Below, piece after piece: positions 34,684 to 42,921 of a DNA stretch of 64,000 nucleotides (the first letter of the stretch is position 1; every line of letters starts with the position of its first letter). A program made the translations under genes and the position numbers. The stretch is taken from positions 97,109-161,108 of the forward strand of contig JACPRZ010000012.1 in NCBI GenBank assembly GCA_016193485.1, written 5' to 3'. A model generated the notes under the pieces. The model saw only the letters and a list, made by a program, of their open reading frames with translations, was not told the DNA's origin and did no database searches. This DNA comes from Bacteroidota bacterium. Its GTDB lineage: Bacteria > Bacteroidota > Bacteroidia > JACPRZ01.

Positions 34684-37185
34684 TTATTCAATAATTAATT
34701 TTCCGGTTGCGGCAACCGTGTCTCTTGAAATGACCCTGTAAAAATAAAATCCGGGCGGCAGTTTGCCGCGGTGAAAAATAACCGGTTTAGCGGGATCATT
34801 AACACGGAGTTCATAAATGTTTTGCTGAAGTTCATTCATGATGACGATCCTGATGGGGGAAGAGGGTGAAGATGCCTGGTCGGCCAGGTAAAATAATGCC
34901 GATGTGCTGACCGGATTCGGAATGACTCTAACGGGGTTTTGTCCTGCAGCAACAGGATCCAAAATAATGGTGCAGGTATCAAGGAACAGGGTATCGGATG
35001 TGGAACAAAGATCAGCGGTTGTTACCGTAATCACGTAGGTATCTTTTTTCATGGCAATAATGGACTGGGTAGTTTCCCCGGTTGACCACATATAAGATGA
35101 ATAACCATTGCCGGCATCAAGCATAATGGTATTGCCGCATAAAAAAGTATCGGGACCCAGATAAATATCAGGAACAGGATGGATAATGAGGTTAATTGTG
35201 TCACTTCCCTTGCAGTAATTTGAATCAATAACCACCACAAAGTACTGGCCGGAAGAATCCGGGAACAATTGCTGGTTTGCAGAGCCGTCAGACCAGAGAT
35301 ATTGCATAAAACCGCTGCCGGCATCGAGCAAATAACCATAACAGGCAGCAGTGTCGGGACCCAGTACGACCTGGGGCAGGGTATTCGGAAAAATAGTGAT
35401 GCTTCCGGATATGGTATCCGTTTCATAAGGATTTGAAACGATGAGCGAATAATTGAAAATACCTGGAGTATCAAACCGGACCCATGCGCTTTTGGCCGTG
35501 GCCCCTGCAATGGAACCACCGCTGAATGTCCAGGAATAAGTAAGAGGCGAGCCGGGCGAAGTAGAGGTAAATAATAGTGAATCCCCGGTGCACAGGGAAT
35601 CTGCAGTTGTCATGACGATACCGTTAAGTGGCGGGAAGAGTTTTGCGACAAAGGCATATTTACCCCCCCCGCCATCCCACAAAACAGTTGAATCGAAAGA
35701 GATGGAGTCCGTATACTCACCGCCACAGAAAATATTGCCATCCTTATCAAGAGCCATTGAATTTGAAAAACACCAGCCGCCATTAAGGGTCCGGGTGGTT
35801 TTTACCCATTGGTATTTTCCGCTTGAGTCCAACTGCATTACAAATGATGTTGTCCCGGTGGAGGTACCGATCGTATCGGAATCCAGTTTCAGCGTGTCAC
35901 CAAAGTGAGTGGAAACAAAAATATTATCATATTTATCGCAATCCATTCCGATATTCCATGTTCCTACGACACCGGAATCGCCAAAAGAACGCGCCCACTG
36001 AAAATCACCCCCGGAGTTGTACCTGGCGAGGAAGAGGAATCCATTGGGGGAAGGATAAATGTTTGGATTGTAGAGCATGGTATCTCCGAAATCAAGTTGA
36101 TAATAGTAATGCCCTGCGATATAAATATTTTCTCTTGAATCAACTGTAAGGGTATGACTGATCTGGCTGTAATCTCCGATTGCTGCCGAAGCCCAGAGAA
36201 AACCGGCAGAGGTGTCATACGCTGCGAGAAAAATATCATCCCATCCAGGATTGATGCCGATTGCCGTTTGTCCGCCACTTGCCGGAAAAATAATGGAATT
36301 CCTGAAGATACCGGTCAGGTATATTTTTCCGTTTTTGTACCGGATACAATTTCCGGCACTGCCATAAAGGGAATAAAAGGTCTTTACCCATAAACATGTT
36401 CCATCAGCGGAATATTTCGCCATGAAGCATTGAGAAATTCCGGCACTTCCGGAGGTAATGGAACCAAAATAAGAAACACCTGTGATATACCCTGTCACAT
36501 AGATATTACCATCTTCATCGGTACAAATGCCATAACCTCGCGCAACGGGCTCGGCACCGCCAGCGCTTTTTGCCCACAGGCAGTTACCCATTGAGTCATA
36601 TTTGGCAATAAAAATGTTCCGGTTCAAGTCGTAGGGGGGTATGCTAGCGCCACTTGTGCCCAAGGCATACAATTTAAAATTCCCAAACCATGCAGAATCG
36701 CAAAAGTCGCCTGTCACCAGAACGTTTCCTGATAAATCGGTTGTGATCGCCCTGCCCCAGTCGGGTGCAAATCCTCCTTCCTGCCGGGCCCATTTGACTT
36801 TACCAGCATTATCATATTTGACAATAAAAACATCTGATTGAGAACCATAAGGCGCTGAATTTATTGCACTGGTGATCGTATCATAGGGGGGGTAACCAAA
36901 ATGCACAAATCCTTTTACGCGCCCTGTCGCTACAACATTTCCCCATTGGTCCGTGGCGACAGACCAACCGTAATTATTTCCACCCCAAGGCGGTTCCATC
37001 CGGATATTGTCAACCCAGTCCCAGTGCTGGGCAGCCCCCATTTGTCCCCCGAACCCTGCATATAAAATCAGGAATAATAACAATTGAATAAATCTCTTTG
37101 CAAAATTTATGTGCGGGGTGAAGGGTGGGAGAAGAAACAGCGAAAAACAGAGATAAAATATTAAACGATTATTATTTGTTTTCAT
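34684..37185 (-). CDS. Secreted SBBP beta-propeller protein with PKD/Ig-like domains and T9SS sorting domain
   Basis: The 833-residue protein contains SBBP-like repeats (about 60-520), recurring as TGDFCDSAWFG, VTGYITGVSYFG and AGHYYYQLDFGD. A PKD-like domain (YSWTFSGGSIAGATAKSAWV) follows, then two copies of a short beta module (VVLGPDTAACYGYLLDAGSG and IYLGPDTFLCGNTIMLDAGN) and a type A T9SS C-terminal signal (VIPNPVSTSALFYL to ATGKLIIE). It is expected to be exported by Sec and then T9SS to the cell surface. The N-terminus has two hydrophobic segments separated by PPFTPHINFAKR; a 15-base match to the end of the 6.4 kb element lies between them, so the original signal may be the inner one. 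Confidence 0.82.
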   Translation of the reverse strand: MKTNNNRLIFYLCFSLFLLPPFTPHINFAKRFIQLLLFLILYAGFGGQMGAAQHWDWVDNIRMEPPWGGNNYGWSVATDQWGNVVATGRVKGFVHFGYPPYDTITSAINSAPYGSQSDVFIVKYDNAGKVKWARQEGGFAPDWGRAITTDLSGNVLVTGDFCDSAWFGNFKLYALGTSGASIPPYDLNRNIFIAKYDSMGNCLWAKSAGGAEPVARGYGICTDEDGNIYVTGYITGVSYFGSITSGSAGISQCFMAKYSADGTCLWVKTFYSLYGSAGNCIRYKNGKIYLTGIFRNSIIFPASGGQTAIGINPGWDDIFLAAYDTSAGFLWASAAIGDYSQISHTLTVDSRENIYIAGHYYYQLDFGDTMLYNPNIYPSPNGFLFLARYNSGGDFQWARSFGDSGVVGTWNIGMDCDKYDNIFVSTHFGDTLKLDSDTIGTSTGTTSFVMQLDSSGKYQWVKTTRTLNGGWCFSNSMALDKDGNIFCGGEYTDSISFDSTVLWDGGGGKYAFVAKLFPPLNGIVMTTADSLCTGDSLLFTSTSPGSPLTYSWTFSGGSIAGATAKSAWVRFDTPGIFNYSLIVSNPYETDTISGSITIFPNTLPQVVLGPDTAACYGYLLDAGSGFMQYLWSDGSANQQLFPDSSGQYFVVVIDSNYCKGSDTINLIIHPVPDIYLGPDTFLCGNTIMLDAGNGYSSYMWSTGETTQSIIAMKKDTYVITVTTADLCSTSDTLFLDTCTIILDPVAAGQNPVRVIPNPVSTSALFYLADQASSPSSPIRIVIMNELQQNIYELRVNDPAKPVIFHRGKLPPGFYFYRVISRDTVAATGKLIIE

Positions 37186-38450: not shown

Positions 38451-38554
38451 ATATTTTTTTGGCAGGAGTTATACACAAAAGGCATCGTATTGATCCTTGC
38501 CGATTTCGGATAATGGGGATGGTGGATCAATGCAATATTACGGCCGTTGCTCAT
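38447..38554 (-). CDS. 35-residue ORF coupled at both ends (possible glycosyltransferase remnant)
   Basis: The ATG (38552-38554) overlaps the methyltransferase stop, and the TGA (38447-38449) overlaps the fucosyltransferase ATG. Both junctions are ATGA. The peptide begins MSNGRNIALIHHPHYPKSAR and ends MPFVYNSCQKNI, which resembles the first strand-loop of a GT-B glycosyltransferase. It may be the leftover 5' end of a deleted gene, kept because it maintains translational coupling. It is also possible that it is not translated in its own right. Confidence 0.4.
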   Translation of the reverse strand: MSNGRNIALIHHPHYPKSARINTMPFVYNSCQKNI

Positions 38555-39289
38555 AGTTTTTTTACCACATAGGTTACGTACCAGGTTTTATCAGAGGGGG
38601 GGAACCCGGTCATCCATTGCTCCCGGTGAATGAGAGCCATGTGATTGGGGCGGATAAATTTTTCCAGTTCATCCGTGAATAAATATCTCATCGAATGCGT
38701 CTCTTCTATAGTACTCTTTTCACCGGTATGTTTATCGGTGATGTTCAGGGTAAAATATACATGGACAAATTTTTTTTTTGTGATATGCTTTGGTACGCCA
38801 TTCCGCACGATTTGGAAGCGATCATTTTCAAATTTTTTTGTGCGTTTGCAGGGGGGATCGGCAAGGACGGCCGGCCCGTACCAGGAATCAAAAATAAAGA
38901 TTCCATTTTTATGGAGATGGGATGCAGCGGTTTTAAAGAAGAGAAGGAGATCGTCATCGGTATTCTGATAATTCGCCACATGAAAGAGGGAAACGGCAGC
39001 ATCAAATTTCTTACCCAGTTGTAAGCGTAAAATATTTCCTGTAAAAAAGCAGGCATTTTTTACCCCCGCACCATTTTTTTCAGCCAGACCTATCTATGCC
39101 GGTAACGGAAAAGCCGTTCCGGGCCAGGATCACTTCATGTTTACCGGTACCGCACCCTAAACTCAAAAGATTTTTTGCAGCAGGCGCATATTTTTTCAAC
39201 AAGCCGTCAATATAAATAGATTCCGCATTATAATCCTTATCGCTGTAAAGCAGATCATAGTAAAGGGCGTAGTTGCTAAAGGGATTCAT
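38551..39289 (-). pseudogene. Class I SAM-dependent methyltransferase, frameshifted
   Basis: The first 69 codons (39289 to 39080) encode the N-terminus with motif I LSLGCGTGKHEVIL and end GFSVTGIDRSG-stop. In the next frame the rest of the protein continues without a break (GLAEKNGAGVKNACFFTGNI, KKFDAAVSLFHVANYQN, to TWYVTYVVKKL at 38551). Comparison with the usual GIDxSxxMLxxA sequence suggests that five or six residues and the frame were lost together, near 39085-39095, where GGTCTG may have recombined with a second copy. The product should be inactive unless this is a sequencing or assembly error. It lies between a DegT gene (4-bp overlap) and the 35-residue ORF. Confidence 0.75.
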
Positions 39290-40929: not shown

Positions 40930-42921
40930 ATGAAAAATATTAAAACCAACACACTGCAAATGCTCTTGTCATTGTTTTTCTTAATGACAATAAGCTTTTC
41001 GGGTTATTCTCAACCACCATTAAACTATTGGAAATTAGGAGGTAATCCAATAACCGGAGTCACCAATGATGTGGTAGACACCACTAACAATTTTTTTGGT
41101 ACAAACTCAGGTATTGCTGTACCTGTAAAACTTGGAGCAAATGGTAATCAAAACCAGTTGTATTTATCTCCAATTACTTCTGGTATTGTCGGTATTGGTA
41201 CGACAACACCCACAGAAAAACTCGATGTTGATGGCAAAATCCGTATGCGTACCGGAGGCATTAGTGGTTTTATTCCTGTTTCCGATGCCAATGGAGTAAT
41301 GACATGGACTAATCCCACTACTATCACAACTGCAGATGACGGGGATTGGACAATTTCCGGGAATGATGTTTACCGAGCCAATGGAAATGTCGGCATTGGA
41401 AACACTGCTCCAACTGCACGATTGCATGTTATGGGAATTAACAATTCCTCCTCTGATTTCGGACTTAAAATACAGAATGGCTCCGGAGGCAATTTATTCA
41501 GCGTCCGGAATGACGGGGCAATTCAGGTGGGAGTTCCCGGTGGGACTGGAACAGTTAATATGTTTTGTAATAACGGCATAGATATGCAGGGAGAAATTAT
41601 ATTGAAGAATAATGTAGGCAAAATCGGATTGCACCTGACCAATCAGGGAACAGGCAATCTAGTGATTCTTGGCGACCCAACATGGTCTTTAAGAATTGAG
41701 AGTCCAGTAAGGTCAAATGTCGTTCTTGGAAACAGTGAGGCCTCCTTTGTACAGGGAGCAGGAAATGAAAAAAGAGGCGTCATACTTCATATACCAGATG
41801 TAACATTGTTTTATAACAATACAAACCCATTAAATACAGCAGCAGCTGTTTCTCTTGGAACTCCGACATTCGCATCTGTTCAGACAACAGTAATTACGAA
41901 AGCAGCAGCTCTTTACCTCAATGGCTCTCCACTAGCCGGTGCAGGAACAACTATATCAGAAAGATACACATTATTAATAGGAAGCGGTAATAGTAGATTT
42001 GACGGTAATGTCGGTATTGGAGTTGCTCCTTCCGAAAAATTGACCGTTGCCGGCACAGTTTTTTCCACCACCGGAGGCTTTAAATTTCCGGACGGAACGG
42101 TGCAAACTACAGCAGCAAGCGGATCTCCGCAATGGACAACTTCCGGCAACGATATTTATAACAGCAATATCGGCAACGTGGGTATCGGAACGACAACTCC
42201 AACAGAAAACCTGCATGTTCTTGGAAACATCTTAGCATCAGGCAGCATTACTCCTTTTTCAGACCAGCGGTTTAAAAAGGATATTAATAGATTGGAGAAT
42301 TCTTTGGAGAAGGTGTTAAAGCTAAGAGGTGTGAATTATTATATGAATACCGAAAAATTTCCTAAATACCATTTCAGCGACAAGAAACAAATCGGATTCA
42401 TTGCACAGGAAGTAGAAAAAGTGCTGCCTGAATTGGTTATTGCCCACAAGGATGGGTATAAGTCATTGGACTATATGAAAATTACTCCTCTATTAGTTGA
42501 GGCCATTAAAGAACAACAGGCAATTATTGAAAAACAGGCAAAACAAATAGAGGAACACTCAAGACACATAGAAGAAATAAAAACTTATGCTACACAATCA
42601 AATAAAGCGGATGATTTTTACAGTGAAACTCTCCAGACAACAGACAAAAAACAAGAAAACGGAATAGTTCTGTATCAAAACAAACCGAACCCGTTTACCG
42701 AAAACACCGTCATCCAATACAAGATTCCCTCAACAGTGAATGAAGCATCTGTCTTAATCTTTGATATGCAAGGCAAGCAATTAAAGAAGTATGAGAATTT
42801 AAAAAGAGGAGAAAGCAGCATTGTTATCAATGGAGGAGAATTATACATGGGTATGTTTATTTATTCTCTTATTGTAGATGGTAAAGAAGTAGCGATAAAA
42901 AGAATGATTTTAACAGAATAG
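40930..42921 (+). CDS. Fibre-like surface protein with S74 intramolecular chaperone and T9SS sorting domain
   Basis: The 663-residue protein has a signal peptide (about 1-27) and a fibre-like region with four copies of a trimeric-fibre motif: VGIGTTTPTEKLDVDG, VGIGNTAPTARLHVMG, VGIGVAPSEKLTVAG and VGIGTTTPTENLHVLG. A peptidase_S74 chaperone domain follows (SDQRFKKDINRLENSLEKVL to GFIAQEVEKVLPELV), with the Ser/Lys arrangement used for autocleavage in endosialidase-type tail spikes. A coiled-coil (IKEQQAIIEKQAKQIEEHSR) leads to a type A T9SS C-terminal domain (NPFTENTVIQYKIP to RMILTE). It probably forms a trimeric surface fibre. It is the only plus-strand gene in the AT-rich island. Confidence 0.88.
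   Translation: MKNIKTNTLQMLLSLFFLMTISFSGYSQPPLNYWKLGGNPITGVTNDVVDTTNNFFGTNSGIAVPVKLGANGNQNQLYLSPITSGIVGIGTTTPTEKLDVDGKIRMRTGGISGFIPVSDANGVMTWTNPTTITTADDGDWTISGNDVYRANGNVGIGNTAPTARLHVMGINNSSSDFGLKIQNGSGGNLFSVRNDGAIQVGVPGGTGTVNMFCNNGIDMQGEIILKNNVGKIGLHLTNQGTGNLVILGDPTWSLRIESPVRSNVVLGNSEASFVQGAGNEKRGVILHIPDVTLFYNNTNPLNTAAAVSLGTPTFASVQTTVITKAAALYLNGSPLAGAGTTISERYTLLIGSGNSRFDGNVGIGVAPSEKLTVAGTVFSTTGGFKFPDGTVQTTAASGSPQWTTSGNDIYNSNIGNVGIGTTTPTENLHVLGNILASGSITPFSDQRFKKDINRLENSLEKVLKLRGVNYYMNTEKFPKYHFSDKKQIGFIAQEVEKVLPELVIAHKDGYKSLDYMKITPLLVEAIKEQQAIIEKQAKQIEEHSRHIEEIKTYATQSNKADDFYSETLQTTDKKQENGIVLYQNKPNPFTENTVIQYKIPSTVNEASVLIFDMQGKQLKKYENLKRGESSIVINGGELYMGMFIYSLIVDGKEVAIKRMILTE

Follow-up and report, generated by a model that had tools for sequence, protein, structure and literature searches.

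A predicted Peptidase_S74 fibre protein with a T9SS sorting signal beyond its predicted cleavage site in a member of the Bacteroidota

How can a protein use an export signal that lies beyond the site at which it is predicted to cut itself? This question is raised by an open reading frame on contig JACPRZ010000012.1 of a Bacteroidota bacterium, within a stretch of 64,000 nucleotides (the window) whose positions are used throughout. The initial annotation of this frame, the coordinates and strand of which are borne out, proposed that a Peptidase_S74 (S74) domain is combined with a T9SS signal, and argued that self-cleavage would separate the stalk from the part needed for attachment. The reasoning is sound, in that a cut at Ser444 would part the stalk from the T9SS signal. 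Here we combine profile searches, a structural model and the comparison of related proteins, and suggest how the two activities might be reconciled. The predicted features are as follows.

40930..42921, plus strand: whole gene, ORF of 663 aa, T9SS-exported S74 fibre protein (predicted)
40930..41013, plus strand: Sec (SPI-type) signal peptide, residues 1-28; cut after ...GYSQ judged by eye; no lipobox Cys
41014..42258, plus strand: stalk, residues 29-443, with four VGIG...P...L.V loops
42259..42438, plus strand: Peptidase_S74 domain, residues 444-503; Pfam E=2.4e-17; model matches MyRF ICA 7dc3
42259..42276, plus strand: SDQRFK, predicted cut Phe443/Ser444; Ser444/Lys449 dyad, in register with MyRF S587/K592
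42472..42603, plus strand: 44-residue helix, predicted S74 trimerisation helix, residues 515-558, from the AlphaFold model
42604..42684, plus strand: linker, residues 559-585; pLDDT < 50 at 564-574; would hold the PorU site
42685..42909, plus strand: T9SS type A sorting domain (CTD), residues 586-660; TIGR04183 above cut-off; model matches CTDs 8glk_D and 8gl6_D

Domain architecture, structural model and genomic context

The predicted signal peptide, MKNIKTNTLQMLLSLFFLMTISFSGYSQ, has no lipoprotein cysteine, and the relatives also have signal peptides. Within the stalk, residues 359-424 match the Bdellovibrio Bd2133 MAT fibre (8ond, E=1.7e-13) and residues 405-446 match 8ol4, while residues 414-504 match the stalk and self-cleaving domain of MyRF (7dc3, E=3.8e-6). 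The Peptidase_S74 profile scores 63.4 bits against a curated cut-off of 22. The SDQRFKK motif noted in the initial annotation is present, and its first six residues are in register as a Ser/Lys dyad, Ser444/Lys449, with a spacing of +5 at the start of the S74 domain. The equivalent dyads of MyRF (S587/K592) and endoNF (S911/K916) have the same +5 spacing (PMC8326128); the chance of finding S....K at any of four adjacent offsets is approximately 2%. The Pfam S74 match is followed by 160 residues, the T9SS CTD among them. TIGR04183, the T9SS type A signal, scores 24.0 bits with the whole protein and 27.2 with the C-terminal part alone (cut-off 23), and Pfam PF18962 gives 25.6 on the full protein, i.e. 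1.4 bits under its cut-off of 27. Judged by every sequence feature tested, the protein belongs both to the S74 proteins and to the type A cargoes of T9SS.

An AlphaFold model of residues 360-663 was built as a single chain with 45 relatives. Most S74 and CTD residues have pLDDT > 90; the stalk is modelled poorly, which is to be expected when a single chain stands in for a trimer. The best fold match of the C-terminal model is MyRF ICA 7dc3 (E=1e-6; TM 0.72-0.76 on the target), and the monomer model has the ICA fold with its C-terminal trimerisation helix. For the CTD, the match is to that of NucA in complex with the T9SS translocon (8glk_D, E=5e-4); the RemA CTD (8gl6_D) and PorU (6za2) follow closely, and the remaining fold matches are mostly generic beta-sandwiches. 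In MyRF, helix alpha4 drives trimerisation and mutating it blocks cleavage (PMC8326128). According to the model, helix 515-558 corresponds to this helix and belongs to the S74 machine. The initial annotation placed both a coiled coil and a T9SS signal beyond S74; the latter stands, and the coiled coil as a separate module is ruled out since the model helix is S74's own trimerisation helix, leaving the T9SS signal as the only extra part.

The gene is the sole plus-strand gene between minus-strand sugar genes, and its neighbours are sugar-polymer genes. Close by, positions 34684-37185 encode a protein of 833 aa whose C-terminus is T9SS-like and which also has SBBP beta-propeller and PKD domains; it adjoins genes for a glycosyltransferase of family 11 and a DegT aminotransferase. 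A methyltransferase-like reading at 38551-39056 is split over two frames (38551-38979 and 38745-39056) and is perhaps a broken gene. The genome to which the window belongs has seven S74 matches on four contigs. Three of its S74 proteins have a CTD, namely the 40930-42921 protein, one on contig C30 (with two S74 domains) and one on C1, and three on contig C2 have none. SprA and PorU of the T9SS machinery were both detected above cut-off, together with at least 150 T9SS CTDs. The SprA reading (G000:C43:10110-17403) consists of two overlapping frames of 1388 and 1145 aa, i.e. a frameshift or an assembly error.

Distribution of the S74-T9SS arrangement and conservation of the dyad

Across the phylum, 39 of 148 sampled genomes have S74, as do 258 of 395 in the class, where many copies are fused to a T9SS signal. 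A whole-genome listing of 69 S74 proteins has a CTD on 15 and none on 54. With a fusion profile that runs from the S74 core to the CTD and leaves out the dyad, we found matches to most of its length at about a hundred places in 198 class genomes; carriers of the fusion include Bacteroidales, Saprospiraceae and Chitinophagales. The combination was initially taken to be unusual, and these counts speak against that: as judged from the searches, the fusion is widespread across Bacteroidota. A full-text literature search, partial in coverage, returned no paper in which S74 and T9SS are brought together, though routine annotation does imply the fusion. Among lipobox anchors that might separate tagged from untagged S74 proteins, only four weak regex matches were found.

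Six proteins have a pair of S74 domains, with an SDxxxK in either one, and a terminal T9SS signal (L008:576-4004, which is the C30 protein of G000, and L174, L153, L177, L185 and L198); two cuts would here yield two separate trimers per chain. At L046:12615-13764 an S74 fibre and its T9SS end lie in different frames, suggesting a frameshift or a broken gene.

Were cutting to conflict with the presence of a T9SS signal past the cut, Ser or Lys would be expected to disappear from tagged proteins. This comparison, which had been proposed in the initial annotation, was made with S74 domains detected by a model stripped of the dyad, and the counts refer to evaluable domains. S....K is in register in 100/101 T9SS-tagged and 112/114 untagged S74 domains, and after clustering at 50% identity in 60/61 and 49/50, respectively. 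The source of some loci was a Pfam search in which the dyad columns take part, and this could bias the count towards retention; among the loci gathered with the dyad-blind profile, the dyad is present in 68/69. Moreover, when 46 tagged proteins of wide divergence (mean column identity 24%) are aligned, only five columns are invariant, Ser and Lys among them; the 46 rows were picked from dyad-bearing proteins, and the unselected counts are the stronger evidence. On a rough tree of the S74 core the T9SS tag was gained or lost at least 23 times with the dyad persisting, a count that is only indicative as it comes from a quick FastTree of a short domain without a shuffled-label control; the dyad thus persists whatever lies after it.

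A few tagged relatives depart from this pattern. Ala and Gln replace Ser and Lys in L187 (minus strand), which keeps stalk, S74 and CTD; Ser is changed to Gly in L222 and Lys to Arg in L231. Going by their sequences, these three are probably natural uncleavable variants, and the loss of the dyad would make cleavage dispensable in some tagged relatives. In two small secreted proteins (L056:2067- and L071:2205-) S74 follows immediately on the signal peptide; they have no stalk and a lost Ser/Lys motif, an apparent case of dyad decay where nothing remains to cut.

Loss of the dyad in T9SS-tagged S74 domains as a class is contradicted by the retention in 100 of 101 and by the invariant columns. 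Cleavage appears not to have been generally lost among tagged S74 proteins, and the conservation of both residues, which favours active cleavage, indicates that cutting is used; it could also partly reflect a folding role of Ser and Lys. Blocked cleavage is therefore unlikely as a rule. The initial annotation had held that export must precede cleavage or cleavage be blocked; the second branch fails as a general answer, which leaves export first, or a cut after which the parts are held together.

Order of export and cleavage

We put at about even the chances that the protein forms a homotrimeric surface fibre, like those of phages and MAT, which is exported by T9SS, trimerises at the surface and is cut by S74, freeing the stalk from the S74-T9SS module. 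The chains would cross the inner membrane by Sec and be carried over the outer membrane by T9SS via the C-terminal signal, in keeping with T9SS cargo in general, which uses Sec and then SprA and has its CTD removed by PorU (PMC10202324). At the surface, three chains would trimerise through their S74 helices, and the S74 domain would fold the stalk and then cut before Ser444, at Phe443/Ser444. This would free the mature stalk trimer from the S74-plus-T9SS module, which PorU would process separately. In function the arrangement would resemble that of MyRF, whose N-terminal trimer is released by the S74 cut from a membrane anchor at the C-terminus. Self-cleavage is known for the bacterial S74 fibre Bd3182, where S782A blocks it (PMC10769870), and cleavage of MyRF requires the trimer (PMC8326128). 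That selection has retained the export signal alongside the cutter suggests that use of the signal normally comes before the cut. With no N-terminal lipid anchor visible, the cell would lose the freed stalk unless some other component bound it.

The chief threat to export before cleavage comes from the proposal that T9SS cargo folds in the periplasm before export, because folding there would favour periplasmic cleavage; the 2023 review that relates this proposal leaves the stage of the final fold unclear (PMC10202324). Were the chains to trimerise and be cut in the periplasm, the stalk would stay or exit by other means, and the CTD would export only the S74 part or be wasted. S74 proteins in the same genomes do manage without a CTD (54/69), but if the signal were lost every time before use, there would be no point in keeping it together with the dyad across approximately 60 divergent sequences, and we consider this order of events unlikely. 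Marginally less probable still is an intact adhesin, anchored through T9SS, in which S74 trimerises without cutting: L187, L222 and L231 may be of this kind, as they keep stalk, S74 and CTD without an intact dyad, whereas the protein studied here has the dyad in register, as do practically all tagged domains.

A somewhat better case, though still an improbable one in our judgement, can be made for S74 cleavage after export with the fragments remaining non-covalently joined, so that a PorU-anchored S74-CTD keeps the fibre on the cell. The sequence evidence for it is the same as for export followed by release; a surface fibre without a visible N-terminal anchor would need some tether, and T9SS cargo is either released or surface-anchored (PMC10202324). 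Against it, the N-terminal trimer of MyRF departs from its anchor after cleavage (PMC8326128), and processed Bd3182 runs on SDS-PAGE as a fibre domain and a separate chaperone domain, an assay that does not test their association (PMC10769870). Finally, a recent phage remnant or a mis-assembly in place of a cellular fibre is very improbable. S74 and the stalk are related to phage tail fibres, but in the phage matches listed the identity stays below 36% and the aligned part amounts to between a fifth and about half of the protein, and S74 matches recur on four contigs of a genome within a group where the fusion is widespread; the weak phage matches and the sugar-polymer gene neighbours rule out a prophage origin.

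Returning to export followed by cutting at the surface, we tentatively propose a more general form, in which a trimerisation-dependent autoprotease, and not PorU alone, releases a T9SS cargo: T9SS would deliver the chains before they assemble, surface assembly would trigger the cut, the trimeric fibre would be shed, members with tandem S74 domains would give two trimers, and the proteins would form a widespread class in Bacteroidota. Periodic renewal of the fibre, as suggested initially, finds no support in this analysis. A cargo that cuts itself only when three chains have assembled would be a natural reporter of the step at which the final fold is reached, since the place in the cell where the cut occurs marks completed folding, and it would also reveal a route for Bacteroidota to shed phage-like trimeric fibres. 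The paradox is real, but it is shared by the members of a common class of proteins, and its interest lies mainly in providing a natural probe of the time at which T9SS cargo folds.

Comparison with known systems

The cargoes NucA and RemA are type A cargoes of T9SS, and the CTD fold of our model matches their translocon-bound CTDs (8glk_D and 8gl6_D). To our knowledge, neither is an S74 trimeric fibre. Likewise, we know of no export signal after S74 in phage S74 spikes and fibres (endoNF, T5 L-shaped fibre and GA-1 gp12). Phage matches to the 40930-42921 protein are weak; the shared features are S74, the upstream stalk and a dyad equivalent to that of endoNF (PMC8326128). MyRF has the Ser-Lys dyad, the trimer helix, a C-terminal tether and a cut that frees the N-terminal trimer, but its tether is a transmembrane segment in the ER and MyRF is a transcription factor.

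The MAT fibres of Bdellovibrio bacteriovorus (the Bd3182 S74 group and Bd2133) have a signal peptide, a long trimeric stalk and similar loop sequences, and the S74 group has S74 with SDxxxK. A conserved beta-rich domain of ~130 aa after the signal peptide is a further mark of the S74-group MAT fibres. In the MAT fibres described, the chain terminates in S74 or a different tip domain, and none is reported to have a T9SS signal (PMC10769870); CTD cargo is restricted to Bacteroidota (PMC10202324). The stalk studied here is homologous to that of MAT fibres (8ond, E=1.7e-13), but the protein continues for 160 residues past the Pfam S74 match and does not end in S74, and it is therefore not filed as MAT despite the related stalk. 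By analogy, the 40930-42921 protein may nevertheless work like the S74-group MAT fibres.
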